Source: a virus. From it: DNA of 31,483 nt. The stretch spans positions 1-31,483 of the IMG/VR virus record IMGVR_UViG_3300032116_000878; one strand, 5' to 3'. The notes beneath the pieces were generated by a model that was not told the DNA's origin, did no database searches, and worked only from the letters and a program-made list of their open reading frames with translations. Below, piece after piece: positions 1,794 through 31,352 of this stretch; positions within the stretch are counted from its first letter, which is position 1; every line of letters starts with the position of its first letter. The position numbers and the translations under genes were made by a program.

Positions 1794-1802
1794 ATAAATA
1801 TT
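1794..1802 (-). promoter_or_regulatory. AATATTTAT promoter-like element before the helicase gene
   Basis: The coding strand reads TGTAATATTTATCAATA, a match to an element that recurs before many genes here. It ends 22 nt before the helicase ATG and overlaps the stop codon of the upstream 150-aa gene. The promoter role is inferred from recurrence and orientation only. Confidence 0.4.
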
Positions 1803-2253
1803 ACACATCCAAACTATAATTCATATAATCAAAACTTAATTTTTTTGTTGAAAAAATCTCGGTTAGGGCTGTCAGAATGGGTTTTAATTTTGGTCGAAGA
1901 TCGACTGTGTATCTAACTTTGGGCGGATAAACCTTCGCGTCGAGATACCTTGAATATAATACACTTTCACCATTTTTAATTGTTAATGTGAATTTTTCAG
2001 GACCATTTAAAAACGATGTTTCCATAATTTCAGGGTTTTCAAAAATCTCATATTGATTGTCCATCATATAAGTCGCAGTTCTAACTCTTAGATTATCACG
2101 AAATTCTGTAATAAACTCCTCAATAAATTCATGCAATTCCACTGAATTTTTTGCCTTTGGATTATACCCCCTCACATTAAAAAATCTTTGGACGATAATG
2201 TTTTCATTCACTTTTAACAAAAATTCCAATTTTGTTGTTTCTTGATCTTTCAT
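1801..2253 (-). CDS. Hypothetical protein in replication operon (150 aa)
   Basis: I do not recognise this protein. It is soluble in appearance, with alternating beta-like segments (KLEFLLKVNENIIVQRFF, EKFTLTIKN) and an amphipathic helix (ELHEFIEEFITEFRDNL); no cysteine or catalytic motif stands out. Its ATG overlaps the stop codon of the upstream 5' nuclease gene by 4 nt (ATGA), so translation is probably coupled. Position between the 5' nuclease and the replicative helicase suggests a replication accessory role, for example helicase loading as with T4 gp59, but length and visible sequence do not show gp59 similarity. Function is unassigned. Confidence 0.8.
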   Translation of the reverse strand: MKDQETTKLEFLLKVNENIIVQRFFNVRGYNPKAKNSVELHEFIEEFITEFRDNLRVRTATYMMDNQYEIFENPEIMETSFLNGPEKFTLTIKNGESVLYSRYLDAKVYPPKVRYTVDLRPKLKPILTALTEIFSTKKLSFDYMNYSLDV

Positions 2254-3266
2254 AATTTGTTTTTTTGGTTTTTAAATTTTGTTTTTTCTTTTCTTGTTAG
2301 TTTTAGTATTGGTTTTAAAAATTCAACCCATGCGTCGTCTTTTTTTGGTAGGTATTTGAATAACCCATCTTCCATCATCATTTTAATTAGATTTTTATAA
2401 CCTCTCCCATCAGGGTCTAATGTCTCACTATAATATTGATTAACAATTTCTTTAGCTTGATCTGTAATGAGGGGGCTTGATAAATCTATTATTTTTTGAT
2501 TTATCGTAAAAAACTCTTCACCATAAATTCCTTCTTTTGTTCTTCCTGTAAGTAAATTTTTAAGTGCGACATTTTCTTTATCTTCTTTTAAAAGTGTTTC
2601 TGCTTTTGATAAAATATCATCAAATGATACTAAATTTTCAAGTACCTCAGGGAATAATTTTACCAATGTTTTTTCACCAAATAACCTTATACCATCAATA
2701 TTATCAGATGTGTCACCACAAAGGATTTTAACGGTCTTGATATTAAAGTGGGGGAACTCTAAATCTTTATTTTTAACCATATCACCCATCTTATATGTTT
2801 TTTTTGCGTTGGGTGAATAAACTGACACCTTACCTGAAATAAGTTGTGTAAGATCCCTATCCCCTGAAAAGATGGTTATTTGTTCATTCTCAGCTATTTG
2901 ACAATAATATGATATAAGGTCGTCGGCTTCATTATTATCAACCTCAATTTGTCTTACAAACATTTCTTCCAAATATTGTTTTATTCGTTCTTTTTGTCTG
3001 TAAAATGATTCCTTTTTTTGATCAGTATCTGTTGATGACCTTTGCTCTTTATATTTGGGATATATTAACTTACGTGAGGATGAATTTGAATCTCCGTCCC
3101 ACATAACTACCACCTTGTCAAAGTTTTGTTCTTCTATGAACTTACGGAGGGTATTTAAGAAATGATAAATACCTCCGATATGTTCTCCTTTGTGGTAAAA
3201 TTCTTTGACTCCATAGAAGCCTATCTTGAGCAGATTATTTGCATCTACGAGCAATGTTTTAGTCAT
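2250..3266 (-). CDS. 5'-3' exonuclease / flap endonuclease, T4 RNase H-like
   Basis: FEN-family nuclease that would remove RNA primers and flaps from lagging-strand fragments. The 338 aa length is close to T4 RNase H (305 aa). Metal-binding acidic residues appear in family order: D8 in LLVDANN, D57/D59 in MWDGDS followed by a basic YPKYKEQR segment, E113/D115/D116 in NNEADDL, D136/D138 in SGDRDLT, and D185/D188 in GDTSDNI. The last group leads into the helix-3-turn-helix DGIRLFGEKT. The lysine-rich C-terminal tail (EKTKFKNQKNKL) may contact DNA. It starts 6 nt after uvsX and overlaps the following gene by 4 nt. Confidence 0.92.
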   Translation of the reverse strand: MTKTLLVDANNLLKIGFYGVKEFYHKGEHIGGIYHFLNTLRKFIEEQNFDKVVVMWDGDSNSSSRKLIYPKYKEQRSSTDTDQKKESFYRQKERIKQYLEEMFVRQIEVDNNEADDLISYYCQIAENEQITIFSGDRDLTQLISGKVSVYSPNAKKTYKMGDMVKNKDLEFPHFNIKTVKILCGDTSDNIDGIRLFGEKTLVKLFPEVLENLVSFDDILSKAETLLKEDKENVALKNLLTGRTKEGIYGEEFFTINQKIIDLSSPLITDQAKEIVNQYYSETLDPDGRGYKNLIKMMMEDGLFKYLPKKDDAWVEFLKPILKLTRKEKTKFKNQKNKL

Positions 3267-3272
3267 CTTTTT

Positions 3273-4498: not shown

Positions 4499-4530
4499 GC
4501 TATTAAGTTAAATTGATTAAATATAATAAA

Positions 4531-4563
4531 GGATGGACACTTTGTCCATGTAAATGTCCATCC
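4531..4563 (-). terminator. Intrinsic terminator after the SSB gene
   Basis: A perfect 9-bp inverted repeat (GGATGGACA / TGTCCATCC) encloses a 15-nt loop and, on the minus strand, is followed by TTTATTATATTT. It starts 16 nt past the SSB stop codon. A nested alternative (TGGACA-CTT-TGTCCA) is also possible. It would limit read-through from the highly expressed SSB gene into the 72-aa/uvsX unit. Confidence 0.75.
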
Positions 4564-4578
4564 TATGATTTTGTTTGA

Positions 4579-5430: not shown

Positions 5431-5501
5431 AAGTTAAAAGTGTTTAATTGTTAAATTGTTTAAGAAATATAAGTGTTATAAGTGAGTTGTCAAATTAAAA
5501 A

Positions 5502-5530
5502 GGGGTATGAATTTTTTATTTTCATACCCC
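5502..5530 (-). terminator. Intrinsic terminator between small-gene block and SSB
   Basis: A perfect 10-bp stem (GGGGTATGAA / TTCATACCCC) with a 9-nt loop is followed on the minus strand by TTTTTAATTT. It lies 20 nt past the stop codon of the 117-aa gene and about 70 nt before the SSB start, so it separates the late block from the SSB unit. Confidence 0.85.
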
Positions 5531-5549
5531 AAATTATAATGTAATATAT

Positions 5550-6825: not shown

Positions 6826-6834
6826 ATAAATATC
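6826..6834 (-). promoter_or_regulatory. GATATTTAT promoter-like element before the 75-aa gene
   Basis: The coding strand reads GATGATATTTATAAATA. It ends 13 nt before the ATG at 6812 and lies in the short gap after the hub gene. It is one of the recurring TATTTAT elements. Confidence 0.45.
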
Positions 6835-6849: not shown

Positions 6850-9800
6850 TTACATATTTAAACTTTGAGCCAAAACAATTGCTTCTTTAATAACAGAGAT
6901 AGAATTTTTTGTTGTTTGATTATCTTTTATTTTATTATAAGTCGAAACTTCTACTTTAGCCGGATATTCCAAAAATAAGAATTTATATATTTCTGTTGCT
7001 AATTGATCTACGTTTGTAATCTGAGTGCCTGTTTTTATTGACTTGCTATTGAATATGTTTGTATTAATTTTATTTACTAAATAATCAGCAGCATATCTTA
7101 TTGCATTTGTTGGATTATCAAATGACGCTAGAGTGCCTACATAATCTCCTATTGAGACACAATAATACTTCTTATTTAGATATTGATCAACTAAACTTTG
7201 TGAGAAGTTAATTTCTTTATTATTAATATTCAAATTTAAAGGTAATGAAATAAAATTATTTTCGTAAATTGAAAACCCTACTTGTGAATATGTTTGTCGG
7301 TAAATTAAACTCCATATTGTATAATTTAACTTATCTTTAATGATCTGGGACGCAGGTTTGTTTCCAACATTTATATTATTTGTAACACCTGTTATTATAT
7401 CAAAGATTTCATTTATTGATTTTTTTGTTACAGACGGATTAATAATACTTTCAAATTTTTCAAATTGTTTATTAACTTTACAAGAATCAGAATTTGATAT
7501 TTTTAATTCATTTGAGCTTGTTTGTTGATTTTGTTTATCTTGCGCTGTGGTTACAGATTTTTGATCTTGTTTTATTTTTTCTTGTTTTGCTAAATCAAAT
7601 ACGTTATCAAGCAAAGCAGTTAAAATTGATTGTATATATGTATCAGGATTAGGCAAAGAAAAAATAGATTGTCTTACACCACCAAAAGTAGTTTTAAATC
7701 CGCCAGGGTTAATATTATGGTTAACTGTCAAAATCATATATGACCCTGAAAACATTGGTATGTGTCTTAAATTAAAATACATCATAGGTTGGATCATAGC
7801 ACATCCCATCATATCAACTGAACACCCATAACTTCTAGTTTTGTATAAATTATATAATGATAAATTCTGAGTAGACGCATTTCTACCTCCGGCTTGATTA
7901 GCCATATCTGTTTGTATTTTAAGTGTCTCAGATGTTGGCTTTCCCGCATCTTGACTAACTTGTATATTCTCAAAAACATTTTGATTTTGAATACCCATAT
8001 CAACTGTAAATCCTACAACTCTATTTGTCTGACCCCAATTTGTTTTGTTATTTAAATTATCTGCCAATGTGGTTGCCGTATCTAACTTATTGAAATATAT
8101 TCCATCATCATTATATGCATAATTTGGTGTATTTTGAGCCAAATGTTCTGAGGTTTTACCAACATAAAAACACACCATTTTAGGTCCTGAGTTTCTATAA
8201 TCAACATTTGGATGCGTTCCAAACATATCATTTGCAAACTGTAATGAATTTTCTATTTTTGGTATTGCATTTTTAATAGGGTCTTGTACATTGTAAAAAT
8301 TAACAAATGAGGGTAAAGTCATAACTTGGAAGTTATTCATTTGCAAAATAGATTGTACGTAATAAAGTAAATTACTTTTTACATTAATATTTGATAATAA
8401 GTTATTAAGCTGTATTATATCAACTAAAACTAAATCTCCTAAATCACGACTTGCTCTATCTAACAACAATACGTCCTCAAAAATTGTCTTATATTTCAAA
8501 TCATAACCGGCAATCCATCTATCATTTGTCGCTTTTAAAGATTCCCAAAGTTCAACTTTACCAACCGCACCTATTAATTCTGAAGCGAAATCTTGTTGTG
8601 GTGAAATATTAACATCTTTAAGCTTTGACCTGGTTTTTTTCATTGTCGAGGTCAAAAGTAAATTTTGAAATTGATTGTTTTCATTTACATAAGTTAATAT
8701 ATCGGATTGAAAACTAAATTTATTATAATTTGGTTTTTCAAGTTTTTGTGTTGCATATATTTTAATTAACGGATATAAAACTTTTATGTTTTGAGGTTCA
8801 AATTCAACATCATTATCAATAAAATAATCAAAAATTGTTGATCCGCTGTTTGTATATTTAATACCTTCAACTTCTGAAAATCCTACATGTGTTATAAGTG
8901 TTTTCCAAGCTTCGGGATAATTTACTGTAACTGAACTTAAAGGAAAAGGATTTGTTTTTGATGGTAAAGCTGTTGGTGAATTATTTGCATAAGACCTTGG
9001 TATAAATGGATCAACAATAGAGTCGAACCCAAGCGCTCTTGACTGTGGATTTGTAAATGATAAAAATATACTTTTGTTATATTCGGATGGATTTCCATAT
9101 TTGAAAAGAACATCATATTCCATAAATGATTGAACAACTGACCTGAAATTACTATATTGATCTACCTTTATTTTATTAACATCTTTTGATAAGTTAGCAA
9201 TTGGAAGTTTCATCATTTCAGTAAAAAGCAATTGAAAGTTTTGAAATATATTATCATAGCTATTTGGTGTGGTTTCAAATTGAATCCGATCTATTGGTAA
9301 AAAATCATACTTTGAGTTACACCAATTAAGAAATAATTGTTCAAATTGATCTAAAATTTCTCTTTTAAATGTTGGTAATAATTCATCCATATAGGTATAT
9401 CCTGACAGATTACCATTTAATTCAAAATTATTTTGATTTGGAGTATTATTTAAAATTTTCTTGAAATATTCATTATATTCAGGTTTTGTAACTTTTGAGT
9501 TATCAAACCAACCGTAATTTGGCGCAATCCAAAATGTCCTTACAGATCCGTTATACATTGATGTATTATTGAACACTTCTTGTTTTAAAATCGGATTTGA
9601 GGTTGTTGAATCTATATTATTAAAACATTCGTTTAAAGTTTGATTAAAATCATTCCCTATTGATGGTATCACAAAAAAACTTGTATCTGATCTATTATTT
9701 AATAATACAGAATATGAATTAAATGTTAATGTTCTTCCAGTTTGAGCCGGATCAAATCCAAATGGCGCTGCAACTGTTGATGTTTTAAAAACTGTAATAC

Positions 9801-12800
9801 CTGAATTAATTCCATTTTGAATGTCACTTGCGGTATAACCTGAAACAAAAGTTCGGTAACCATTATAAAAAACAGAAAAATCGTTTATTACTTTTGGATA
9901 AAAACCAACATTTAAACTTGAAGCTGAAAAATTACCAACAGTATCGTTTGTCTGTAAAACAATTCTTGTTTCACTTGTGTCACCTTTACCTGTAAATACA
10001 TACGTTTTTGTGGCGGCTGAAGTTACAGGATCATAATTATCTAAATAATCAAAATTCTTCCATACATCGGTTAAAATATCAATATTATTCTCAACCTTCT
10101 TTTTATATCTATGCCAAATTGAACCATATTTTAATACCCATGCGTAAGGTAATTTATGCAAAGCTCCGAATTTTTTGAATGTTGCAAATAGATAATCCAG
10201 TTCTTGTGTTTGATTGGTACTATATGTTTTGTATGTCTCACCAAGTGTTGCTAAAGGTAAGGAATTTAAAAATAAATAACCGGCAGATACATAAGGATAA
10301 ATTACAGAATTTCTAAAATTTGAAACCCCTTTTTGTATTGCATTTACAAAATAAGGCGTATTGAGCATTGATGTTGTTTGCTCATTTAATAGAGATAAAT
10401 CATAATTCTTATATGTTATTTTTCCTTCTGTCGGTAACTGATTTTGCTTTGTATTTAATCTATTCTGATAGAATGTTTTAAGTTGTGCGGTTGTTTGATT
10501 TCCCGCAGGTAAATTAGGTGTTATCTGATCTTTTAAATAATTAAAATAGGTTAATGGTCTTTTAGTGGTTGATGTTGTTGTATCATCAATTGTAAAATTT
10601 GTTATACCATTTATTACCTTGTTATACCCTATAATTCTGTCAGTTCTATTTGCTAAGGTTGGATTTGAAATGTTTAATCCATTTGATAAATTATTAGTTA
10701 TCCATTTTGAACTATTGAATGGATAGCTATCAATAAATTCATAATCGTTATGTGTTGATGACTTTAAATAGTTTTCAAAATTTTGTATGTTCGGTACTGT
10801 TGGTGTTGCTCTTGAAGCTTGATTTATTTGATTGAATATTGGTTTGTCAAATATTTTAAAATCATTCTCAGAAAATGAAGTAATATAAGGTGTTGAATAA
10901 TACCCTCTAATATATCTCTGATAGGACTCCCCTTCACCTGAATTTGATATTGTTCTTAATATTGGTCTTATTGTGGTTGGACTAATATCGTATTCTTTTA
11001 ACTTTTTAATCAAAAAGACATTTGTATCACCTAATGAATTTAAAATGTTAAAAGATTCGGCTTCGGCAATTACATCAGCCACACTATATTGATCAGGATT
11101 TCCTCTTGTTAATCTTGAATAGTTTGTTGTAAAACCAATTCTTTCCCATAACTCATAAAAATACTTAACCTCTTCTTTATTTTGATAAATTTGGTCACTT
11201 ACAGGATATTCAACTTCGTTAAATGTAATTCTATTAACAGCAGTTAATTCTGTTTCTGTAGGATCTTGAGCAGCATTATTTGGATTTTTATTTAAAAGTC
11301 CATTTAATAATTCCTCAACAAATTCTATCTCGGGCCATTCATCAAATAAAAATCCTTGAGTTGTTTGCACAACTTCAGGGTCGCCAGGATATGCAACATC
11401 ATATGTTTTAATTCCATTTTTATCTTTTTCAACAATAAATTGAGGCCAAGGATATATAAGATCATTATTTTTAGATAATAAAGGCTTATCTGAACTTTTA
11501 CCTCCTAAAAATATCGCCTGTTTTCTAATTGGGCTGTCTCTTTTGTTCCAAGCCTCCCTATGAGTATCATCCATTAACCTTAAAAACGCTTCTCCGTTTG
11601 CAAAAAGTATTGCCAATACATTTCTAATTGTGGGGACAAATCCTAATCCTGCTTTATTATTACTACCATTTTTTAATAAGTCATTAAGAGCCTTACTTAA
11701 TTTATCCAAAACCATATTTCGTTTTTGGGTAAGCTGTTTTGTCATATCAGCATATATAGATGTGAAACTATTAGCACCATCTATTTTGTAGAATTGAGCA
11801 ACAGGTTCAGGCTCATTTTCTTTTTTTTCTTTTGTAGAATTTTCGCTAGCGTCTGTTAGAAACAAAGCTACTGTCGCTGCTGAAAAATTTGCAAGTTCAA
11901 CCAAATTTTTTGGGTCGTCAGCACTTTTTTTATATTGAAGTTCAAAAGATTTTTTAATATCAATTTCTTCAGGTTTTATAACATCAAAATTTAACCACAA
12001 TGGTAATTTTGAAGGACCGTTTAGTATTTTTTCAAGTAATGGTATTTTGAATTTATTAGTTATTCTCGCATCTTCATATGTCTGATTACCAATAGTATAT
12101 TTTCCATTAACACCACATATTGGATTATCATCTAATAACTTATTATATTTAATAATAGCTGTACGAAAAGCACTTCTTGCAACTTCTGTTTTGTTTTTAT
12201 CATCTCTAAATTCTTTTTTTAAAAGATAAACTCTTTGATTTTTATCGGATTCAAGAATAAACGGATTGTTCGTATCAACGTACAAATTAAAAATTGAATT
12301 AAAAACTGTTTTAAATTCTTTAAAAAAATCATTTAATGTTTTTGAATAACTTTCCAAATTTGTAAGCGGTGCCATATTTTCTTGACCCCACTTTACCAAA
12401 ACATCTTTAATGAACGTGTCCAACTTTTTTTGTAATTGTACCAATGTATAATTTGGTAAATTTTGTGGTATTAATCCTTTTGACTTATACTCATTATATA
12501 ATTCATTAATTTTTTGTTTTCCTAGTGTTACGTTTTGCGTTATTACATTTGTATTTTGCTCGTTTGGATTGCCCGTATTATTTTTTAAACTTACAATATT
12601 TTTGTACATATAAGGAACTGCTAACATATACCCCATTGCAACATCAGCTAACACTGTAAATTTATAGGTCATAAATGTAAGATCAATAACAAAGTTACCT
12701 GATTGATTATCAAATCTAGCATTAAAATTTTGAAGCATAAGTTGATATCTTACAGCTTTTCCATAATAACCTTTTAGGGTAAGATAAAAAGCCGGATATG

Positions 12801-13266: not shown

Positions 13267-13579
13267 AATAATAAAAATGGTTCTCCAAGGCGTTATTATA
13301 ATCCTGTAATGAAGCTAACAAGGGAAATGGGATTGTCAATACTGTACCATCAGGTATTATAAATTCATTTCCACCAAATTGTGGATTTGCTTGTAAAATT
13401 AACCATCCAAAATATGGAGAATCGTAATATTGTTGTGAAATCTTATCCAATCTTGTTTGACCTAGTTTGTAAATATAGTTCTTGTCTGTGGTTTTTAAAG
13501 GTATTTTAACAAAAGGAACTACAGTTTGATTACCATCAATTAAAAAATCATTATATCTATTATAATATTGTAATGCCAT
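13256..13579 (-). CDS. LysM-like baseplate protein (gp53/P2 gpX type)
   Basis: Small protein of 107 aa. Residues ~37-82 match a LysM-like pattern: LGQTRLDKISQQYYDSPYFG, then WLILQANPQ and IPDGTVLTIPFP. This is the arrangement of T4 gp53 C-terminal domain and P2 gpX, which sit at the baseplate/tube junction. In phage tails this fold is usually structural and need not bind peptidoglycan. The gene lies directly before the hub gene, overlapping it by 11 nt, and 2 nt after the 1539-aa baseplate gene, which supports a baseplate role. It is shorter than gp53 (196 aa). Confidence 0.7.
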   Translation of the reverse strand: MALQYYNRYNDFLIDGNQTVVPFVKIPLKTTDKNYIYKLGQTRLDKISQQYYDSPYFGWLILQANPQFGGNEFIIPDGTVLTIPFPLLASLQDYNNALENHFYYYGR

Positions 13580-13581
13580 AA

Positions 13582-18214: not shown

Positions 18215-18222
18215 ATAAATAG
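18215..18222 (-). promoter_or_regulatory. CTATTTAT promoter-like element before the 1539-aa baseplate gene
   Basis: The coding strand reads CAATCTATTTATATAAAAAAA. It ends 13 nt before the ATG at 18201, in the 39-nt gap between tape measure and baseplate genes. Confidence 0.4.
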
Positions 18223-21200: not shown

Positions 21201-21801
21201 TAAGACCTTCAATGCCGTTAGCAAAGTTAAACGTATTAAGTTTTGATAAATTAGCAACAACTGAACTTGAAACCGCCGCGGTATTCACACCTAATGCGCG
21301 AGTAGTATTTACTACTTTTTGCATATTTTCAGAAATAGCATTTAAAGAATATCCCTGCTCTGTAAAATTCTTTATAAGAGTTCCAGATTCCACTTTGGAA
21401 GCTTCGGTGGCTGCAACAATCTCTTCGATATTTTGTGATGTTGCCATATAATTTCGATTGGTTCCTTCGGCTACCTCATTAGCGATTGTTGCCGCTTTTG
21501 CCATGGCCTCTTCATATGTAGAAACGTTGTCTGTTAATAAAAGAATTTTAGAAGAAGCGTCTGAAATACCAAGAGCCATTTCTTGAACTCGATCTCTTGC
21601 ACCACCGAAGTTTTTAATTAGACTTGTTGTGGACTCGTCTATTTGCGCTAAGGTGTTATCGACATCATTGGCTCTTTCTTTAATAGCTTTAAAAGCATTA
21701 GCAAATTCACTTGATGAAAACTTTGTTTTTCTTTGGCTACTTTTGAAATAACTTTCAATATCTTTTTCCGTAAGTTCTCTTTTTTTACTATCGCCCGGCA
21801 T
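18241..21801 (-). CDS. Tail tape measure protein (1186 aa)
   Basis: Predicted tape measure, assigned from position (after tube and chaperone genes, before baseplate genes), length and composition. Residues 1-350 are helical with a heptad-like pattern (NDVDNTLAQIDESTTSLIKNF and on), as in tape-measure N-termini. Residues ~560-1110 are Asn/Thr/Ser-rich low complexity carrying three degenerate copies of a SGFADLxK unit (TGFADLIK, SGFADMLK, SGFADLFK) and an exact internal DNA repeat. The C-terminus is again ordered (FNIKVDAPPGVDTAYITDV). By the usual ~0.15 nm per residue rule a fully helical ruler would be ~180 nm, but the disordered middle makes that an upper guess. No transmembrane helix is obvious. 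Confidence 0.8.
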   Translation of the reverse strand: MPGDSKKRELTEKDIESYFKSSQRKTKFSSSEFANAFKAIKERANDVDNTLAQIDESTTSLIKNFGGARDRVQEMALGISDASSKILLLTDNVSTYEEAMAKAATIANEVAEGTNRNYMATSQNIEEIVAATEASKVESGTLIKNFTEQGYSLNAISENMQKVVNTTRALGVNTAAVSSSVVANLSKLNTFNFANGIEGLTRMAAKAALFNIDMTKIFTLADNLFDPEKAVEMASSLQRLGVATGDLLDPLKLMDLGQNNPEELQKQIVEMSKRFTYFNEQNQKFEIMPGAKRELREIAGAMGLNADELAKMALGSSTLADKMSKIRFPTLKTDITEDQKELIANMSEMKDGKYMIKVERRDKEGRGLGEFDSKDVSLLDDTDIENLKKQYSESNKTLEETAQDQLTIQKRMLNEMESVASSLRGGLATSRPVRKGIEEVIKFKDKTIEPITDAATSKNARELIDDIVTDLANYTKNKTSGQYSDEEIKKQEDAINEKYKDKLVKLENSINKAGDVLGKAATDLGSGLLNAILGSGSEILKVPEKPKEPAESILQKEGTGLQILENVYNLSRQNEDASQKSQINPNANTTSIPSLSNADKTIKNNFAQNNQTQNQSTVNNVTQQSDMIATLKNNEETVNQLKILNDVSKTGFADLIKSSEKPTKLDISDLTLEDKSVASKNTENASLNFAENAKTKNDDKLINTLPYDSSLLRKFDNTLNTTLNNPQTTNNNNLTEFSNNLNQYSSLKTTDNYNQFSSLVNQNSSQNLLSGPFSPDQKSTKFGLNIPYVTPGLTFNKVDNTKKEDNITTAPVASNLNNNQPIENKRFIGGTDYDFNSLIGILLQNNKPNTTSLTNSENNFKNLSNQITENKALSTTNINNLPNEINKVTEDNKSIEKLQELIDVSKSGFADMLKKQISLDLSNVDFAKFVKVDEKSNIRPVSESKILSETKQTEKLINVLSEKETPLPQPVTTTNSSVANSENIVKNLSNQITENKALSTTNITNTPNENLFKEDKSLGNIEIDIDKQMSGFADLFKSFDEKSQNLFNGQIAKKEEDSIQIPNISLVSNNVTPNSLESPLTDNRFKNTITPNPITESITKNTFDQKIKEYSQSTETKKGEFTHNHTIDFNIKVDAPPGVDTAYITDVMTKVLKQPQTIAALIQEQKNMKSDYNLTGGKVGEYNFTA
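18792..18840. repeat. 49-bp exact direct repeat, copy 1 (in tape measure gene)
   Basis: This block is identical to 19167-19215, offset by 375 nt (125 codons, in frame). It encodes LSNQITENKALSTTNI in both copies. It marks an internal duplication in the low-complexity part of the tape measure. Confidence 0.92.
19167..19215. repeat. 49-bp exact direct repeat, copy 2 (in tape measure gene)
   Basis: Second copy of the 49-bp block at 18792-18840. The similarity continues imperfectly on the protein level on both sides (SENNFKNLSNQ versus SENIVKNLSNQ). Confidence 0.92.
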
Positions 21802-21826: not shown

Positions 21827-21835
21827 ATAAATATA
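21827..21835 (-). promoter_or_regulatory. TATATTTAT promoter-like element before the tape measure gene
   Basis: The coding strand reads ATTATATTTATTTTATAA. It ends 25 nt before the tape measure ATG, in the 40-nt gap after the second chaperone frame. Confidence 0.38.
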
Positions 21836-22742: not shown

Positions 22743-22754
22743 ATATTTTTTATT

Positions 22755-22782
22755 ACAATAATATCTTATATTGTATTATTGT
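22755..22782. repeat. Inverted repeat upstream of the gp26-like gene
   Basis: ACAATAATA (22755-22763) pairs with TATTATTGT (22774-22782), a 9-bp all-AT-rich stem with a 10-nt loop, in the leader of the gp26-like gene. It could be an operator or mRNA hairpin; low GC makes its stability doubtful. Confidence 0.5.
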
Positions 22783-22806
22783 AAATAAGAACTTATGTAA
22801 ATAAAA

Positions 22807-22832
22807 AATTCCCATACAAATATATGGGAATT
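22807..22832 (-). terminator. Intrinsic terminator after the tail tube gene
   Basis: A perfect 10-bp stem (AATTCCCATA / TATGGGAATT) with a 6-nt loop runs on the minus strand directly into TTTTATTTAC. It lies about 40 nt past the tube stop codon. Confidence 0.85.
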
Positions 22833-22871
22833 AAACAAAGTTCTATTTGAATAGATATATTTTGGTAATTG

Positions 22872-23360
22872 TCAATACACCAATATGCAACGATCCATGC
22901 GAAGAGAAGCTGTAATCTCAGCCAAATTATCTGCATTATAGGCCAAAGATCCAAAATTAACATCAGTTAAAAATGTTCCTTGTAAAATCCATTTTTCAAC
23001 AGGTACGCCAGTCGGATCAAGCATTTCTAAATCAACATCTTGTTTATATCCAGCAGCGTAACCCATACGACCTGTAACAGATTCTGCACATAATCTTACC
23101 CACTCCATTAAAGCCTGAGCGGCCGATGGTCCAATTGGATCTCTGAATTTTACAGAAATAGGGTCCCAATTAAATCTTCCAGCAACAAACGTTGATGTAT
23201 TTAAAAAAGGAATTTCAGTTGAGTTTATTTTTATTGACGGTCTAGCGGCGGTTTCAACAAACCACTCATTAATACCCAAACTTGATGGAAATCTCAAGAT
23301 GAACCTGTTCTGTCTTTTTGGTTCATAGGGTATGGGCATTTTCATTAGTAAATCAGCCAT
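22872..23360 (-). CDS. Tail tube protein (gp19-like)
   Basis: Major tube subunit stacked inside the contractile sheath. The 162 aa length matches T4 gp19 (163 aa). Family features include the N-terminal MPIPYEPKRQNRFILRFPSS segment, where the KRxNRF pattern is common in gp19-like tubes, then VETAARPSIKINSTEIPF, the central ISVKFRDPIGPSAAQALMEW segment, and a C-terminal strand block (LQGTFLTDVNFGSLAYN). Flanked by a TATTTAT element upstream (35 nt before ATG) and a strong terminator downstream, which fits a single highly expressed unit. The leader is A-rich with no Shine-Dalgarno sequence. Confidence 0.92.
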   Translation of the reverse strand: MADLLMKMPIPYEPKRQNRFILRFPSSLGINEWFVETAARPSIKINSTEIPFLNTSTFVAGRFNWDPISVKFRDPIGPSAAQALMEWVRLCAESVTGRMGYAAGYKQDVDLEMLDPTGVPVEKWILQGTFLTDVNFGSLAYNADNLAEITASLRMDRCILVY

Positions 23361-23395: not shown

Positions 23396-23404
23396 ATAAA
23401 TATC
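23396..23404 (-). promoter_or_regulatory. GATATTTAT promoter-like element before the tail tube gene
   Basis: The coding strand reads GAATGATATTTATAATAA. It ends 35 nt before the tube ATG. The tube unit is closed by a terminator, so a dedicated promoter is expected in this 61-nt gap. Confidence 0.5.
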
Positions 23405-23421: not shown

Positions 23422-24249
23422 TTAATATTTTTTCTTTACTCCTCCTGCTGTTGAATAAGTTTGTAAAATATTTTCAGGTTCTTTTTCAAAATGTTTTTTC
23501 ATAGTTTCAACATTTCTAATATCATCATCTGAAAACCCTATTTTTGGTTCGGGTAAAAAGTTGTTACTTATATCATTTTTTAAGAAAGCTTTTTTTCCTA
23601 TTTCGGCAGATAATTGTTTTACATAAGAAATAAATTCTTTCATAGCCTTTATCTTACCTTCTTCTGGACTTGTTGCTGATCCTTCGCCATATGAAACAGG
23701 ATAAAATTTGCAAAGATCTAAATACTCATTTAAAATTTCTATTTTATCTTGAGTTCCTTGATATCCTGCAATATCTCTATACTTCTCTAAATTTCTCACC
23801 AATTCCGTAAAAGAAATACCATCTCTATTTGATAATATAATATTATAACACGCTTCTCTTAAAACAGAAGGTGTGTGCCCTCTTGCGGTGACAATTGCAA
23901 ATATTGAACCGTTATTTATCGCTTCAACAAAGTCAGGCCAAGCTGGCCCAACTGGAGCTACCATGCTATCAATTATAAATTTTTTATCACCATCAACTCC
24001 AAAGTTTCTAAATGGATTTTCACCAAAACCTACAATAATTTCACCTTCATATTTAAAATCTTCTTTACCTATTTTGGTTCTATAATGTGCAAAATCTTCG
24101 GTTGACATTCCAACTTGATCTCCACTATCAGTTTTAAGAATAATTTTTGTTGGCATATTCATAATATTATCATCCCAATCAAAAGCATAATATTTCATAT
24201 CGGGAGTTCCTTCTTCTGTAATTCCTTCAAATATTTTTTTTCTTATCAT
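23422..24249 (-). CDS. HAD-superfamily phosphatase-like protein in the tail operon
   Basis: A 275-aa protein with all HAD signature motifs. Motif I is FDWDDN (nucleophile D24, acid/base D26), motif II is VTARG with T121, a lysine lies in EEGKIKAMKEF (K199/K201), and motif IV is IGFSDDD (D241-D243). HAD enzymes dephosphorylate nucleotides, sugars or nucleic-acid ends; the substrate here cannot be read from sequence. T4 has a HAD phosphatase domain in PseT, but no kinase domain is present. An insert (~40-115) between motifs I and II may be the cap. The start overlaps the stop of the 36-aa gene (ATGA). Its place between sheath and tube genes is unusual. Confidence 0.82.
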   Translation of the reverse strand: MIRKKIFEGITEEGTPDMKYYAFDWDDNIMNMPTKIILKTDSGDQVGMSTEDFAHYRTKIGKEDFKYEGEIIVGFGENPFRNFGVDGDKKFIIDSMVAPVGPAWPDFVEAINNGSIFAIVTARGHTPSVLREACYNIILSNRDGISFTELVRNLEKYRDIAGYQGTQDKIEILNEYLDLCKFYPVSYGEGSATSPEEGKIKAMKEFISYVKQLSAEIGKKAFLKNDISNNFLPEPKIGFSDDDIRNVETMKKHFEKEPENILQTYSTAGGVKKKY

Positions 24250-24356
24250 TTTGTTAATTTACTAATTAATCTCTCTAACTGAGATTCGGAAACAACAATT
24301 GATTTTGGTTTTTTCTTGGTTGTTTCATTTATTTTTTTTGGTTGCTTAGGTTTCAT
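24246..24356 (-). CDS. 36-aa basic peptide with SESQLERLI motif, coupled to the HAD gene
   Basis: A short frame (MKPKQPKKINETTKKKPKSI, then VVSESQLERLISKLTK). The first half is Lys/Pro-rich and the second is a short amphipathic helix. Support for coding: a TATTTAT element ends 13 nt before the ATG, and the stop overlaps the HAD start by 4 nt (ATGA), the same coupling used elsewhere here. I do not know its function; it might be a leader peptide that couples translation or a small partner of the HAD protein. Confidence 0.6.
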   Translation of the reverse strand: MKPKQPKKINETTKKKPKSIVVSESQLERLISKLTK

Positions 24357-24369: not shown

Positions 24370-24378
24370 ATAAATATT
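24370..24378 (-). promoter_or_regulatory. AATATTTAT promoter-like element before the 36-aa/HAD genes
   Basis: The coding strand reads TTCTAATATTTATATATAAAA. It follows the sheath terminator by about 15 nt and ends 13 nt before the 36-aa ATG, a logical position for a new transcription start. Confidence 0.5.
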
Positions 24379-24446: not shown

Positions 24447-27400
24447 TTATATGTTTTCAAATGAAGCACCTGTCGGTGTAATATAGAATGTGATATCTAT
24501 GAATTCCAAAGATTTTGTTGGTTTGATATAAATAGATCCTACCAATCTATTATTATCCAAATCTTCAACAGAATTAGATACTGTCACTCTAAAGTCATAA
24601 AGACCTCTATCTCTTCTAATTGAATCCAAGATAGGATTAACAGCATCAAGGAATTGTTGTCTCACAATCGCATCGTTTTGTTCAAATAACAATCTAACTG
24701 CAACTGCTGATATTAATTTACGAGCTTGTAATAACAATCTTCTTACGTTAATTCTATCAAGAGCCGATTGTTTAATTTGTAGAGTTTTGTTACCCCAAAT
24801 TACAGTACCAACATCAGAGAAAGTTGCAATTGGATTGATTCTTCCTTCGTAAAGAACATCTCTGTCAGTTTGAGATAATTTCTTTCTTGCTTTAACTGAA
24901 TTAACAAGACCTCTTGTGTAACCTGCGGTTGCGAACCAAGGGAATGCTACGTTATCAGTTAATGCCAAGTTTCTTGTAACCTCAGCTGTTGGTGGAATGT
25001 AAATTTGTGTATTATTCACATTATCTCTTGTTAATAACCAAGGATAATATGTCGCCGTATAATTTGAATCAATATCAGAATTATTTAATGTGTCTATTGC
25101 GTCTTCAGGTAATATCTGATCAGATTCAAATGATGTTGTTGGAACAAACATTTGATAGTCAGGAGTTGTAACAATATAAATTGAGTCAGCTCTATCAAGT
25201 TCGACCATATTAATTGTTTGCTCAACCAATTTAGGATTATTAACATAATCAATACCTGGTGTTACAAACACATTGATATTAACAGATTCAGGATTTGCAA
25301 ATGTTTGGATACCTAAAAGGTATGCATAATAATCTGTGTTTGCCCAATCAACTTCGTTTTGATTAATTGTTATATTTCTGAACAATCCTTCTCCATTTGC
25401 GGTTGGGTATCTTGCTGACGAACAAGCTCCTTTTCTATATCCTCTTCCTCCAAGTACAAATGAATCGTCATTTGTTCTGTATTCTCTATAGATATCCCAA
25501 CCATCAAATCCACCGTATGGTAATACTGTGAATTTTCTTGCAGATATTCTGTAATAAGGATTTTCTTGAGATTCAGGATCTGATTGGAAACTTGCAGCAC
25601 CTACTTCAAACGCGACGCTTCCGCTTGTTACATATTCATTTGATATTGTAACGCCAGTTGCATCTTTATCCATGTGGAAACCTTTTGTTAAGTATTTCCA
25701 TGATTGGAAGTCACTTTCATTTATTGTGCAAAAATCTGAAACTGATTTTTTTCCTTTATAATCCAAAAAGTCGGAGTCAATTCCAATTTTATCTGAAAAA
25801 CCTAAGTAAGTTCTTCTTACGTTATCACCTGAAGAAGTAATTGTTACACCAGCCCCTGATGGTATTCCAAAAGGAGGATTATAAACAACTTCACCTGGGA
25901 AGTTATAACTTGTTTTGTAAGGTGCAAATGGTGGTATCGTTGCCGTTGACGCTGAATATTCTCTCATAACATAACCTTCAAAACCACAAGGTAATGCGTC
26001 AGCCGGAGCATCAGGGTTCATTTTCACCATTATGAATTTAGATATCAATCTATACTCACCATCAGATGTTCCTATTCTTTGAGCTACATAATTATTTAAA
26101 GTCGGATCCAAAGAACAATTTGTAAATTTCTCAATTACAACTGGATTAGAGTCCGTATCAAAATAATCTCTTACTAACACATCAAATGTGCCATTTTCAA
26201 ATGACATATTTGCCAATGAAATTTTAACTTGTGTGTTTGCCTCTGATCCGTCAGAAATAAGAACAAACTTAAATAATTGATAAACAGTATTACCCCTTAA
26301 TTCAGAAACAACCCAAGGTGTTTCAGGTGTTTTATATTGTTCTAAATAGTTAGCTATAGATGATGTAGCGTTGTTTCTTGCACTGTCAAGTTCTATTAAA
26401 TCACAACTAAGTCCTCTAATATATCCTTTGTTGTAAGCCCATCTTAACATGTTCGAGTAACGTTCTTCAACAAACAAGGGAACTTCAGTTCTTGGTTTTT
26501 CAAAGTTTGTTGTTCCAAATACTTTTGTTATAAAGTTAGTATTTGTAGCGTCCATTGATGTTTCAAATTCAAATGCTTGATTTGTTCTTGTAATACCTGA
26601 AATTTTGAAAGTTGAGAATGGATTTTTTGTAACTGCTGAGTAAGAACCTGAACAAACCATATTAACTCCTGTTGTTGCAGATACTTGATAAACAGGTCCA
26701 TTATCAGAAGTATATGTTGCAATACCTCTTGATCTTAATGTGGATACTACAACATTATCATAGTCTGTAAATGATGTTCCTGAGAACCCTTGTATGAACA
26801 CTTCATAAAATCCAGTATAATAAGTAGTAAAATTAGAAAACGTACCAGAACCAGGTGTTTGGTTAATATAAAAAGAAAATCCATAGTAATTACCATTTGT
26901 ATTAGTAAAATTTGAATAATACCAAGGGTCATTTGTTGGGTTAGTCAAAGTGTTTGCTGAAAGTGGAATTCCTGGAACACCGAACACGTTTGTACTTGCG
27001 GTAAGACCATTTGATAAATTTGTTGCATAATCACTATCTTGTATTGATCCGAAATAATATATGTGTGGTTGGTTTTCATAAGCCGGAACACCTCCATCTA
27101 TCGCGGTTTGAACTAATTCCTGTAAAAAACTTACAATATCTTCTCTGAAAGTTGATACACTACCATCAAATTTTTGATACGGAACGTCTAAATTATTATC
27201 AATCTCAGGAATACCAGTAGGGTCAAAAACATAATTAAACTCAGATGCTTCCACTAATGTAAGGGTATCTCCGATAGCACTAAAATTTATTGTTGGATTA
27301 CTTGGAGCTGGACTTGTTGTTCCTGTAGCAGCAATTGTTGATTGATCAACATTTGCGATTGTTTTTATCGACCAAGATGGTCCTGCATCATAACCAGATA

Positions 27401-27692
27401 GACCCAATATCCTTGTTACGAATAATTGATTTGATTGTTGTAGATATGATTTTGCAATATATGCTGCCTCATATTTTGGAATTTGTGTATTCACAAATTT
27501 TTCAGGAGATGTTCCTCCGAACATTGTTTGAAACTCGTCATAACTAGATATGAATATAGGTTCAAAAGCTGGACCCTTTAAGGTCTCACCTACTATACCC
27601 AACGTTGTAATACCAACACTAGATGCAACAAAACTCAAATCAACCTCAGATGTGTAAACTCCCGGTGAAACGAATACTTTACTGTTTGCCAT
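24447..27692 (-). CDS. Tail sheath protein (gp18-like), enlarged (1081 aa)
   Basis: Contractile sheath subunit. The N-terminus (VSPGVYTSEVDLSFVASSVG, then GETLKGPAFEPIFISSYDEF and a later FGG) is the standard sheath start. The C-terminal ~150 residues carry the conserved sheath core (GRINPIATFSDVGTVIWGNK, LDRINVRRLLLQARKLI, then FRVTVSNSVED). At 1081 aa it is much longer than T4 gp18 (659 aa); the extra length lies in the middle (~130-800) and is rich in Ser/Thr/Asn/Tyr, presumably surface-exposed domains. It has its own promoter-like element 33 nt before the ATG and a strong terminator after the stop. Leader CAAAAAATG is A-rich with no Shine-Dalgarno sequence. Confidence 0.95.
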   Translation of the reverse strand: MANSKVFVSPGVYTSEVDLSFVASSVGITTLGIVGETLKGPAFEPIFISSYDEFQTMFGGTSPEKFVNTQIPKYEAAYIAKSYLQQSNQLFVTRILGLSGYDAGPSWSIKTIANVDQSTIAATGTTSPAPSNPTINFSAIGDTLTLVEASEFNYVFDPTGIPEIDNNLDVPYQKFDGSVSTFREDIVSFLQELVQTAIDGGVPAYENQPHIYYFGSIQDSDYATNLSNGLTASTNVFGVPGIPLSANTLTNPTNDPWYYSNFTNTNGNYYGFSFYINQTPGSGTFSNFTTYYTGFYEVFIQGFSGTSFTDYDNVVVSTLRSRGIATYTSDNGPVYQVSATTGVNMVCSGSYSAVTKNPFSTFKISGITRTNQAFEFETSMDATNTNFITKVFGTTNFEKPRTEVPLFVEERYSNMLRWAYNKGYIRGLSCDLIELDSARNNATSSIANYLEQYKTPETPWVVSELRGNTVYQLFKFVLISDGSEANTQVKISLANMSFENGTFDVLVRDYFDTDSNPVVIEKFTNCSLDPTLNNYVAQRIGTSDGEYRLISKFIMVKMNPDAPADALPCGFEGYVMREYSASTATIPPFAPYKTSYNFPGEVVYNPPFGIPSGAGVTITSSGDNVRRTYLGFSDKIGIDSDFLDYKGKKSVSDFCTINESDFQSWKYLTKGFHMDKDATGVTISNEYVTSGSVAFEVGAASFQSDPESQENPYYRISARKFTVLPYGGFDGWDIYREYRTNDDSFVLGGRGYRKGACSSARYPTANGEGLFRNITINQNEVDWANTDYYAYLLGIQTFANPESVNINVFVTPGIDYVNNPKLVEQTINMVELDRADSIYIVTTPDYQMFVPTTSFESDQILPEDAIDTLNNSDIDSNYTATYYPWLLTRDNVNNTQIYIPPTAEVTRNLALTDNVAFPWFATAGYTRGLVNSVKARKKLSQTDRDVLYEGRINPIATFSDVGTVIWGNKTLQIKQSALDRINVRRLLLQARKLISAVAVRLLFEQNDAIVRQQFLDAVNPILDSIRRDRGLYDFRVTVSNSVEDLDNNRLVGSIYIKPTKSLEFIDITFYITPTGASFENI

Positions 27693-27725: not shown

Positions 27726-27734
27726 ATAAATATT
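27726..27734 (-). promoter_or_regulatory. AATATTTAT promoter-like element before the sheath gene
   Basis: The coding strand reads ACATAATATTTATCATTAAA. It ends 33 nt before the sheath ATG. Back-to-back with a plus-strand copy at 27767-27775. Confidence 0.5.
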
Positions 27735-27764: not shown

Positions 27765-27780
27765 AAAATATTTATATTTT
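27765..27780. repeat. Short palindrome AAAATAT-TT-ATATTTT, possible operator
   Basis: Perfect 7-bp arms with a 2-nt centre. It includes the plus-strand AATATTTAT element and lies between the divergent sheath and RHH-like gene starts, so it could be a binding site for a dimeric regulator. In AT-rich DNA such palindromes also arise by chance. Confidence 0.35.
27767..27775 (+). promoter_or_regulatory. AATATTTAT promoter-like element before the plus-strand RHH-like gene
   Basis: The plus strand reads CATAAAATATTTATATTTT. It ends 35 nt before the ATG at 27811, the same distance as before the tube gene, but on the opposite strand. This supports a directional element. Confidence 0.5.
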
Positions 27781-27810: not shown

Positions 27811-27975
27811 ATGGATTCTAAGGACGCAGAAGTGAAGAATTTAAAGATTTCAAAAGAAGTTCACGATATATTAAAACAATATTGTGATAAAAGAGGTATA
27901 AAAATTTATCGTTTTTTGGAAGCTTTAATTCGTGAAAAGTGTATTGAAAAAAAGGATATATACGGAGAAAATTAA
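27811..27975 (+). CDS. Ribbon-helix-helix-like small DNA-binding protein, antisense to the tail operon
   Basis: A 54-aa plus-strand gene. After a short charged start, VKNLKISKEVHDILKQYCDK, then RGIKIYRFLEALIREKC, has the shape of an RHH/Arc-type domain: a short beta strand (NLKIS), helix A (KEVHDILKQYCDKRG), a turn, and helix B (KIYRFLEALIREK). Such proteins dimerise through the strand and bind palindromic operators as repressors or activators. It is the only plus-strand gene inside the tail block. Its stop codon overlaps the stop of the convergent neck gene (27972). It shares its upstream region with the sheath gene, so it could control sheath transcription and its own. Fold assignment is by eye; the target is unknown. 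Confidence 0.68.
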   Translation: MDSKDAEVKNLKISKEVHDILKQYCDKRGIKIYRFLEALIREKCIEKKDIYGEN

Positions 27976-29010: not shown

Positions 29011-29523
29011 TTATAATCCTCTAAATTCGTTATCTGTTACTGGCGCTGCTAATATGGTTCTATAAAAAGCTTTATAACCCCCATATGAATGTTTGTTATC
29101 GGATGTAACACGACCATCATCAATAACAGAATAATATCTTACCTTTGTTTCTGTTTCATAATAACCAATATAATCTCCGTACGCGATATCAATATCAAGT
29201 TCTTGTAAATGTTTTATATAAACTGATATTCTAATGTTGCCCGGTTCGGTTTGTTCAATTTTTGAATTTCCCAAAGCTTTTGATGTTGGTGCTGAAACTT
29301 GAACGAAAGCTTTAAATTCAACAGGAGCGTCAAACTGTATTCCGTCTTTTAGGGTTTCGCCATAGACATCATCTTTTTTTGTTTTTACCCTATTTACACG
29401 ATATAACACTAATGTAAAATTCATATCTCCTTCTAACCATTCGGATCCCATATCAATATCTAAATGGTAATCCTCAGCCCCGAAGAACTTACCTAATCTC
29501 GTTATGGGAACTTTCTTTGCCAT
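29011..29523 (-). CDS. Neck / head-tail connector candidate, gp14-like (170 aa)
   Basis: First gene of the minus-strand tail block. Recognisable features are FTLVLYRVNRVKTKKDDVYG followed by a beta-rich body (EFKAFVQVSAP, IRISVYIKHLQELDIDIAYG, DYIGYYETETKVRYYSV). The YGE segment and the L.ELDI...GDYIGYY pattern recall T4 gp14-type neck proteins, but the match is weak and 170 aa is shorter than gp14 (256 aa). Position directly before the gp15-like candidate supports a neck role. A TATTTAT element ends only 7 nt before the ATG, so the message may be nearly leaderless. Confidence 0.45.
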   Translation of the reverse strand: MAKKVPITRLGKFFGAEDYHLDIDMGSEWLEGDMNFTLVLYRVNRVKTKKDDVYGETLKDGIQFDAPVEFKAFVQVSAPTSKALGNSKIEQTEPGNIRISVYIKHLQELDIDIAYGDYIGYYETETKVRYYSVIDDGRVTSDNKHSYGGYKAFYRTILAAPVTDNEFRGL

Positions 29524-29530
29524 ATTATTG

Positions 29531-29539
29531 ATAAATATT
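29531..29539 (-). promoter_or_regulatory. AATATTTAT promoter-like element before the neck genes
   Basis: The coding strand reads GTAAATATTTATCAATAATA, ending 7 nt before the ATG at 29523. It overlaps the plus-strand element at 29534-29542 because ATAAATATTTAC is nearly palindromic. Confidence 0.42.
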
Positions 29540-29542
29540 TAC
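29534..29542 (+). promoter_or_regulatory. AATATTTAC promoter-like element before the helicase gene (plus strand)
   Basis: One-base variant of the recurring element, facing the SNF2-type helicase gene. It ends 33 nt before the TTG proposed as start, a spacing shared with the sheath gene. Confidence 0.38.
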
Positions 29543-29575
29543 TTGTTTCTTATTTTTAGTTGTAAAACTATTTTT

Positions 29576-31330
29576 TTGGAAAACATCATATCAATAGAAC
29601 AGAAAGCCTTGGAGATACTGTCTTCGTATAATGGTGCCAACAATTTTATATTGAAACTAAAACAACAGCAATCGATTAATAAAAAATTTTTCCCAACAAG
29701 AACTCAATCAGATTACATAATATCATATTATGATACCCAACCTAAAATAGCCAAAAAGTGGGTTGATTTGGATCCTTACTTTGCAAAAAAGTTTGCGGAT
29801 GAAAAATTATTTAGAGAAATTCCAAATAATGTTTATGTTGATAAACTTTTAATTGAAAAAGAAAAATCATATCATATATGGGGCAAGTTTTTTGAATCTG
29901 ATACGTTAACAGATTTTTGGCTCCCTAAAGGTGCATTGATTAAAACTCACATAATTGAAAAAATTAATATTGATTATTCAAAATATTCTCACAGACCTCC
30001 CCTTGACCATCAAAAAGAAGCGATTGAAAAACTTGCCGGTAGCAAAAGATTTATTTTGGCAGACGATATGGGTTTGGGAAAAACGACTAGCACAATAATT
30101 GCCGCTTTGGAATCGAAGTCCAAAAAGGTTTTGATTATATGTCCAGCGTCACTTAAAATAAATTGGTTAAGGGAGATTGAGAATTACACAGATAAATCCA
30201 TTTATATATGTGAAGGTAAAAATTTTTCATCCGATCAAGATTTTGTTATTGTAAATTACGATATAATAAAAAACTTTCACGATATAAAAGACAAAGAAAA
30301 TTCTCAGATATTAAAGGCAAATTTTGATTTAATAATTATAGATGAGGCTCATTATATTAAAAATTCTCAAGCCCAACGCACCAAATTAATTAATGATTTT
30401 GCAAAAAAAACTAACCGTTTATGGTTATTGACAGGGACGCCAATAACATCTCGTCCTATTGATTATTATAACTTATTAAGTTTAGTTGAGTCGCCAGTTT
30501 CTCAGAATTGGATGGCATATGTAATTCGTTTTTGCGCTGGTTATCAATTTAAAGCGGGAAATAGAAAAGTTTGGAATGTTAATGGTGCTGCAAATTTAGA
30601 TGAACTTCGCGAAAGAACATCAAAACAAATTTTAAGAAGATTAAAAACTGATGTACTTGATCTGCCTGAAAAAATAATCAATCCAATTTATTTAAGATTA
30701 AGGTCAAAAGAATATGAAAATTTAATGGGTGAGTACTATGATTGGTTTAGAAATAATAAAGAAGAATCTTCATCACTTACCGTTCAGTTTTCAAAACTGA
30801 TGAAAGTAAGACAAGTAATCGCAGAAGAAAAAGTTTCTCAAACAATTGAACTCGCTGAAAATATTATTGAGCAAGGTAAAAAGGTTATAATCTTTTCTAA
30901 TTTTACTGAGCCGTTAAAACGTATTCATGAACATTTTGGTAAAATGTCTGTTTATCTTGATGGGTCCACAACAAAACCCGCAAGGCAAAAAGCTGTAGAT
31001 GATTTTCAGGATAACGAAAAGATAATGGTATTTTGTGGAAACATTAAAGCTGCTGGAGTCGGTATCACCCTTACCTCGGCTGAGGTTGTAATTTTCAACG
31101 ACTTATCCTTTGTCCCCTCTGATCATTCGCAAGCCGAAGACAGAGCTTATCGTTATGGTCAAAAAAATAGTGTTTTGGTATATTATCCATTATTTGAAAA
31201 TACAATAGAAGGGGCAATTTACGACATATTAATTCGTAAGAAAAGTATATTTGAAACTGTGATGGGTGACAACTTAGATAGGGGTAGTGTTGCTGAACTA
31301 ATATTGAATTCAATTAACGATGCTGGATAA
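29576..31330 (+). CDS. SNF2-family (SMARCAL1-like) DNA helicase/translocase
   Basis: ATP-driven double-strand DNA translocase. With a start at TTG 29576 the protein has 584 aa; Walker A region DDMGLGKTT lies at ~163-171, followed by motif Ia (VLIICPASLKINW), II (IIIDEAHYIKN), III (LWLLTGTPI), a second lobe with VIIFSNFTEPLKRI, and motif VI (QAEDRAYRYGQ). These match SNF2/SMARCAL1-type annealing helicases and distinguish it from T4 UvsW. It probably acts in fork remodelling or recombination. The frame stays open to ATG 29504, but that would add a hydrophobic 19-residue stretch (FFAILLINIYLFLIF), overlap the divergent neck gene, and precede the promoter-like element, so I prefer TTG. The next ATG lies inside Walker A. 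Confidence 0.88.
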   Translation: MENIISIEQKALEILSSYNGANNFILKLKQQQSINKKFFPTRTQSDYIISYYDTQPKIAKKWVDLDPYFAKKFADEKLFREIPNNVYVDKLLIEKEKSYHIWGKFFESDTLTDFWLPKGALIKTHIIEKINIDYSKYSHRPPLDHQKEAIEKLAGSKRFILADDMGLGKTTSTIIAALESKSKKVLIICPASLKINWLREIENYTDKSIYICEGKNFSSDQDFVIVNYDIIKNFHDIKDKENSQILKANFDLIIIDEAHYIKNSQAQRTKLINDFAKKTNRLWLLTGTPITSRPIDYYNLLSLVESPVSQNWMAYVIRFCAGYQFKAGNRKVWNVNGAANLDELRERTSKQILRRLKTDVLDLPEKIINPIYLRLRSKEYENLMGEYYDWFRNNKEESSSLTVQFSKLMKVRQVIAEEKVSQTIELAENIIEQGKKVIIFSNFTEPLKRIHEHFGKMSVYLDGSTTKPARQKAVDDFQDNEKIMVFCGNIKAAGVGITLTSAEVVIFNDLSFVPSDHSQAEDRAYRYGQKNSVLVYYPLFENTIEGAIYDILIRKKSIFETVMGDNLDRGSVAELILNSINDAG

Positions 31331-31343
31331 TTCGCGTTTTGAT

Positions 31344-31352
31344 AATATTTAT
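31344..31352 (+). promoter_or_regulatory. AATATTTAT promoter-like element before the last gene
   Basis: The plus strand reads TTGATAATATTTATGGAAAATG. It ends 5 nt before the ATG at 31358, so a transcript starting here would be leaderless or nearly so; its role is uncertain. Confidence 0.35.

Follow-up and report, generated by a model that had tools for sequence, protein, structure and literature searches.

Gene content and TATTTAT sites of the window

The window analyzed here, 31,483 nucleotides (nt) of viral DNA (positions 1 to 31,483 of IMG/VR record IMGVR_UViG_3300032116_000878), contains a short element, TATTTAT, that recurs in the gaps ahead of its genes. Matches to PHROG families identify a DnaB-like helicase, an exonuclease, a UvsX-like recombinase, a gp32-type single-stranded DNA-binding protein (SSB), a gp25-like wedge, a hub, the tail tube gp19, and the sheath gp18. 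A 321-kb viral contig, G004, matches in gene order and strand (DnaB at 26.8 kb, followed by the exonuclease, UvsX, SSB at 32 kb, the hub, the tube at 49 kb, and the sheath at 51 kb), and the cultured Flavobacterium phage immuto retains both gene blocks with the order within each unchanged. This content and order, common to G004 and immuto, mark the window as part of the genome of a T4-like jumbo phage, probably one of Bacteroidota. Freshwater Bacteroidetes phages that carry bS21 and reach 331 kb (PMC9723584) resemble these phages in contig size and gene content and are probably of the same kind.

A preliminary description of this DNA had listed ten exact copies of TATTTAT in gaps, each aimed at the next gene. 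All ten were located, eight on the minus strand (1794, 6826, 18215, 21827, 23396, 24370, 27726, and 29531) and two on the plus strand, and on both strands every one reads TATTTAT in the orientation of the following gene. The earlier plus-strand positions, 27767 and 31344, mark the first base of AATATTTAT, so the heptamers themselves begin at 27769 and 31346. The sites, all of them candidate promoter cores, are as follows, with spacing measured from the end of the motif to the start codon and offsets counted from the first base of the core.

1794..1802, minus strand: AATATTTAT, candidate promoter core 22 nt before the DnaB-like helicase gene (389-1771); A at offset 11
6826..6834, minus strand: GATATTTAT, candidate promoter core 13 nt before ATG 6812; AAA at offsets 11-13
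18215..18221, minus strand: TATTTAT core, reading CTATTTATA, 13 nt before the gene for a protein of 1539 amino acids (aa) (13582-18201); AAA at offsets 11-13
21827..21835, minus strand: TATATTTAT core, 25 nt before the gene for an 1186-aa protein (18241-21801)
23396..23404, minus strand: GATATTTAT core, 35 nt before the tail tube gene (22872-23360); AAA at offsets 11-13
24370..24378, minus strand: AATATTTAT core, 13 nt before a small open reading frame (ORF) (24241-24356), directly behind a terminator-like hairpin; AAA at offsets 11-13
27726..27734, minus strand: AATATTTAT core, 33 nt before the tail sheath gene (24447-27692); AAA at offsets 11-13
27767..27775, plus strand: AATATTTAT core, 35 nt before a small Arc-like ORF (27811-27975); the weakest exact case, without an A-run
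29531..29539, minus strand: AATATTTAT core, 7 nt before gene 29011-29523; near-leaderless
29534..29542, plus strand: AATATTTAC, a variant and inexact match proposed for a helicase gene; plausible only with a TTG start at about 29576
31344..31352, plus strand: AATATTTAT core, 5 nt before ATG 31358; predicted leaderless mRNA

The spacing of 13 nt reported earlier for three genes (sites 6826, 18215, and 24370) holds, while that of 33-35 nt, reported for four, holds for three exact sites (33 nt at 27726; 35 nt at 23396 and 27769), and a fourth case would require the 29534 variant to serve the helicase gene from the TTG at about 29576. The first ATG of that helicase ORF (29504) overlaps the divergent gene 29011-29523 (region 29504-29580), and its true start probably lies further in, perhaps at this TTG. 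The remaining exact sites stand at 22 nt (1794), 25 nt (21827), 7 nt (29531), and 5 nt (31346). ORF calling followed a simple longest-ORF rule, and individual distances may therefore be wrong; the TTG start called at 6839 is incorrect, and the gene behind site 6826 begins, as we read the sequence, at ATG 6812. Random starts, however, would not produce the tight distance clusters. At the sheath genes of G004 and a second long relative, G016, the spacing is 33 and 34 nt, versus 33 nt in the window. The gaps 4499-4578, 5431-5549, and 22743-22871 contain no exact TATTTAT.

Counted over the whole window, TATTTAT is not enriched (27 copies versus 26.1 expected), so the case for a signal rests on location and strand. 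The 808 nt of gene-start DNA contain ten copies on the gene strand and one on the opposite strand, versus 1.34 ± 1.15 expected from dinucleotide-preserving shuffles, and none of 2000 shuffles reached ten.

Recurrence of the motif in related phages

We gathered 80 related contigs via the tail tube protein, giving with the window 81 contigs and 625 upstream regions. Among all 7-mers, TATTTAT shows the largest count excess, being present in 320 regions versus 43 expected; many other words with high z scores occur as reverse-complement pairs, as terminators would. When only regions of at least 25 nt are counted, it is present in 319 of 622 versus 46 ± 6.6 in shuffles, and its reverse complement in 112 versus 65. 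The exact heptamer lies upstream of the tail tube gene in 65 of 66 distinct regions, with variable flanks. The motif is thus commoner upstream of gene starts than in shuffled intergenic DNA, both in the window and in its relatives, and this comparison did not refute the promoter reading of the preliminary description.

As the 81 contigs are mutually related, we also examined two more distant genomes, immuto and the "Microcystis" phage Mel-JY01 (PP395634), with tail tubes 36% and 44% identical, respectively, to that of the window. TATTTAT was found in 34 regions of immuto versus 4.9 expected and in 24 of Mel-JY01 versus 5.3 expected; the corresponding numbers for G004 are 95 and 9.3. The immuto genes behind such sites code for the terminase, portal, PhoH, sheath, tube, hub, tape measure, and tail spike, and the virion genes behind sites in the window are those of the sheath and the tube. 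In these phages, the class would serve mainly virion and tail genes, that is, a late mode. The 484-kb uncultured phage LR756508 showed no dominant upstream motif in the ca. 345 kb examined. The gene content and order of Mel-JY01 resemble those of immuto, its upstream regions bear CTTGCATA...GTATATTTG, which is a Bacteroidota-type promoter (TTG, TAnnTTTG), and its host label of Microcystis is doubtful.

Late promoters of phage T4 carry TATAAATA at -13 to -6 and depend on the sigma factor gp55, the coactivator gp33, and the sliding clamp gp45. Applied to the T4 late region as a control, our procedure returned TATAAATA, which is not the dominant form in the relatives of the window, where the core is TATTTATA/TATTTATT.

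Gaps with an A+T content of about 77%, in a window where the heptamer is common throughout, might be expected to produce TATTTAT by chance, and kinship among the contigs would then repeat it. Such an origin is already refuted by the shuffles (1.3 copies in the window; 46 regions versus the 319 observed in the relatives), by the strong bias of orientation, and by the separate recovery of the motif in the two distant genomes, and its probability is negligible.

Promoter geometry and predicted leaderless genes

The core is usually preceded by A, G, or C, seldom by T, and usually followed by A or T, giving the fuller form V-TATTTAT-W, most commonly ATATTTATA. Position profiles upstream of the core are nearly flat in G004, G016, and immuto, with no -35 signal, and TTG is not enriched upstream of the sites in the relatives. 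At sites with a leader in these three genomes, A is strongly favored (ca. 0.7 to 0.9) at offsets 11-13 from the first base of the core, a preference that recurs when sites closer than 14 nt to the ATG are set aside. If the first base of the core is taken as -13, as in T4 (PMC1524935), offset 13 becomes +1. TATTTAT would accordingly act as a -10-like element on the gene strand without a -35 partner, and transcription may start within the A-run, 11 to 13 bases downstream of the first T.

In G004 and G016 there is a second class of sites, in which the ATG itself occupies offsets 11-13. The core lies 3 to 7 nt from the ATG in 50 of 106 motif-bearing genes of G004 and in 39 of 92 of G016, nearly all at 4 to 6 nt, from which leaderless mRNAs can be predicted; in the 300-kb relatives, the predicted start of transcription may coincide with the A of the start codon. 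Over the initial 118 kb of G004, where its virion genes were found, 4 of 27 sites are leaderless, versus 48 of 79 in the rest (Fisher P = 4e-5), so that leadered sites prevail in the first part. About one-quarter of the called genes in the 300-kb relatives carry TATTTAT, and a strictly "late" label is therefore too narrow for these phages. In them, the class would serve this quarter of the genes alongside a host-type promoter (TTG...TAnnTTTG). Promoters of the latter type, with the upstream TTG, are found in the same genomes at distances of 4 and mostly 14 to 24 nt from the ATG, similar to those of TATTTAT, in support of a second promoter class that has TATTTAT as its -10-like element.

The proximity of so many sites to the ATG (the 50 of 106 in G004) could also suit a Kozak-like translation initiation signal, since Bacteroidota are reported to be without Shine-Dalgarno sites and to rely on bases ahead of the start codon (PMC6847099). 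However, TATTTAT precedes only 3 of 150 tightly packed operon-internal genes of G004, versus 106 of 258 others, which is not what one would expect of such a signal, and we reject this candidate on that near absence. Moreover, the core remains unchanged at very different distances (4-6, 12-17, and 20-45 nt), and the point marked by the A-run of leadered sites lies ahead of the start codon; we regard a role in translation as very improbable. Slightly less probable still is a site bound by some phage regulator, or by a replication or packaging factor, and standing before genes by coincidence. The core is nearly palindromic in sequence, like some protein-binding sites, but its strict gene-strand polarity, the A-run or ATG fixed at offsets 11-13, and the -10-like geometry are features of promoters. 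TATTTAT is thus almost certainly a real, conserved, phage-encoded promoter class, and its architecture is very probably T4-late-like.

The putative sigma factor and related promoter systems

No match to the beta subunit of RNA polymerase (PF00562) was found in six genomes, while 14 of 14 control genomes matched, which favors a change of sigma type over a new polymerase. A phage RNA polymerase was rejected as the reader of TATTTAT on the lack of this subunit in the six genomes. The phage-specific promoter with altered sigma specificity suggested in the preliminary description is the best-supported reading, given the shuffle tests and the missing beta subunit.

The late sigma family of PHROG, phrog_234, gave weak matches in six relatives, all to a single orthologous ORF of about 240 to 265 aa that also has a homolog in Mel-JY01. 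The homology to gp55 was found in the long relatives, the 31-kb window itself being without a sigma gene. With a profile of T4-family gp55, the top three of 1297 ORFs from four genomes are the candidates of G004, G016, and immuto, in that order, and in the reverse direction the sole match of the candidate profile in the whole T4 genome is gene 55 (E value, 7.7e-4). Alignment of the candidate family with nine gp55 proteins by hhalign gave a probability of 71% for the near family and of 85% (E value, 5.9e-6) with remote members added, and the top PDB sequence match is T4 gp55 (7d7c; E value, 0.0087). The candidate carries a C-terminal helical domain in addition to the gp55-like part, and a search against Pfam and NCBIfam returned nothing above the cutoff.

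In T4, gp55 contacts its promoter through Y97, which stacks on A-12, N13 and H95, which touch A-9, and T99, which touches A-8 (PMC7892883). In our alignments of genomes carrying TATTTAT, Y97 corresponds to an invariant Y (Y108), H95 is replaced by Y or F, and T99 by G, Q, or S, while the motif retains A-12 and A-8 and is altered at -10 and -9. As far as a remote alignment can tell, residues and bases would agree at -12 and -9.

Several observations weigh against a T4-late-like promoter class read by such a sigma factor. The residue match appears partial and is neutral or contrary at -8, where the A is kept and the T4 contact T99 is not. The homology to gp55 is remote, with ca. 19% identity over 113 columns, and the Mel-JY01 candidate is not ranked high by the gp55 profile alone. 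The AlphaFold model is weak (mean predicted local distance difference test score [pLDDT], 68), with no Foldseek match below 0.001; sigma factors rank high among its matches without being significant, and this richness could be taken as a weak hint of sigma identity. LR756508 codes for a homolog of the sigma factor (E value, 1e-48; L240:321-1031) and yet has no dominant motif. Mel-JY01 shows a weak A-run, and window site 27769 has none. Finally, the profile of the sliding clamp gp45 (phrog_223) matched only T4 and none of the relatives, although a diverged clamp is possible, as Mel-JY01 has a clamp-loader-like ATPase.

The Bacteroidota housekeeping promoter has TTG at about -33 and TAnnTTTG at about -7. 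TATTTAT could be a promoter read by the host housekeeping sigma or by an RpoD-like sigma of the 300-kb relatives, since a Sigma70_r2 protein is found in G003, G004, G016, and G017 and both cores are T/A-rich and lie at similar distances from the ATG. However, immuto and Mel-JY01 have the motif and no Sigma70_r2 match, the core departs from TAnnTTTG (with TA at -2 and -1 in only 17 of 100 sites of G004 and 18 of 85 of G016), no upstream TTG enrichment was found at TATTTAT sites, and these genomes show host-type promoters as a separate class. Reading by one of these other sigma factors is thus unlikely, though less so than the chance, translation, and binding-site explanations. The host housekeeping promoter itself was rejected, as neither the TAnnTTTG element at -7 nor a TTG near -33 fits. 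It resembles our motif in its distance to the ATG in the 300-kb relatives, and it is the probable host type, but it differs in core spacing and in the upstream TTG that TATTTAT sites are without.

The RpoD/RpoS-like sigma of G004 (265 aa) is coded at 291706-292503 on the minus strand (L209:11706-12503). The 300-kb relatives encode their own such factor, and in neither immuto nor Mel-JY01 was one detected. Upstream of this sigma gene in G004 lies gene 292507-293025, with a TATATTTG box 4 nt ahead of its ATG. In immuto, mostly at 60-76 kb, small genes are preceded by a second, longer promoter, AGTTGC-N~21-TATATTTAGGTAT(CAATAATTAAAA), which can also be written AGTTGC...TATATTTAGG and is probably an early host-type class.

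Recognition of TATTTAT by a gp55-like sigma is probable on these sequence comparisons. A remote, phage-encoded gp55-type sigma would redirect the host RNA polymerase to the TATTTAT core, and a T4-late-like promoter class read by such a factor is, taken as a whole, the explanation that we favor as likely.

The preliminary description had remarked that the complement of the T4 late sequence lies on the coding strand, which is literally true, as TATTTATA is the reverse complement of TATAAATA. A simpler reading is that the central AA of TATAAATA is replaced by TT to give TATTTATA, with the orientation unchanged; this two-base view is possible because TAT-NN-ATA is palindromic, and no reversal of polarity needs to be assumed. 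As in T4 late promoters, we find a single -10-like octamer without a -35 element, standing before virion genes in the orientation of the gene, a predicted start about 13 bases after the first base of the core, a putative sigma of the gp55 family, and no phage RNA polymerase. The differences from T4 are the central bases (TATTTATA), the remoteness of the gp55 homology and the added C-terminal helical domain, the clamp that was not detected, and the extension of the promoter, in the 300-kb relatives, to leaderless genes and beyond virion genes.

There is a precedent for an altered T4 late core together with a diverged gp55 in phage Aeh1, with the late promoter CTAAATA (PMC1524935), although the core change itself differs from ours. 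Short phage-specific late promoters are also known in the jumbo phages AR9 (AACA-6N-TA/G) and phiKZ (TATG), but there they are read by phage multisubunit RNA polymerases (PMC5312081), and no beta subunit was found here.

A closer parallel is seen in the Rhodothermus phage RM378, where the upstream motif TATTTAA(A) is followed by an A-run and then closely by ATG. The promoter-like form TTATTTAAA-(N)AAAA-ATG, with a very short leader or none, stands before ca. 30 genes (L231, L232, and L234). RM378 p020, annotated as hypothetical, is a remote homolog belonging to our sigma family (E value, 1.8e-11), from a more distant lineage. Both systems thus have the TATTTA core, the A-run after it, a short leader or none, and a sigma family homolog; unlike ours, the seventh base in RM378 is A instead of T, and RM378 also has an extracytoplasmic function-type sigma (p144). 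It may be, and we would put this at even chances, that a lineage of T4-like phages infecting Bacteroidota (300-kb jumbo phages included) and Rhodothermus has a sigma family of its own, falling between gp55 and ordinary sigma factors and directed to TATTTA-type cores in place of TATAAATA, with the jumbo members working in two modes, as short-leader mRNAs dominate the part with virion genes and leaderless mRNAs the rest.

T4 late transcription is a textbook system, and a large, almost unstudied group of phages appears to use a two-base-changed core with a matching remote sigma. This would provide a natural test of how the region 2 domain of sigma sets promoter specificity, a rule by which late genes and correct start codons could be located across many uncultured contigs, and an indication that leaderless mRNAs, as predicted, are widespread in jumbo phages. 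The cultured member, immuto, makes the system directly testable. We found no paper pairing TATTTATA with a late promoter and none relevant for TATTTAT, which is weak evidence of novelty, as most subscription papers fall outside the coverage of the search; among the papers found there was no promoter study of immuto, and the one on bS21 Bacteroidetes phages (PMC9723584) contains no promoter analysis.

Three very large proteins of the tail region of the window (2138, 1539, and 1186 aa; 6850-21801) have no PHROG match. The tail sheath protein (24447-27692) has 1081 aa, with an N-terminal part of ca. 760 residues that is without a family match and a sheath match limited to the last ca. 320 residues.

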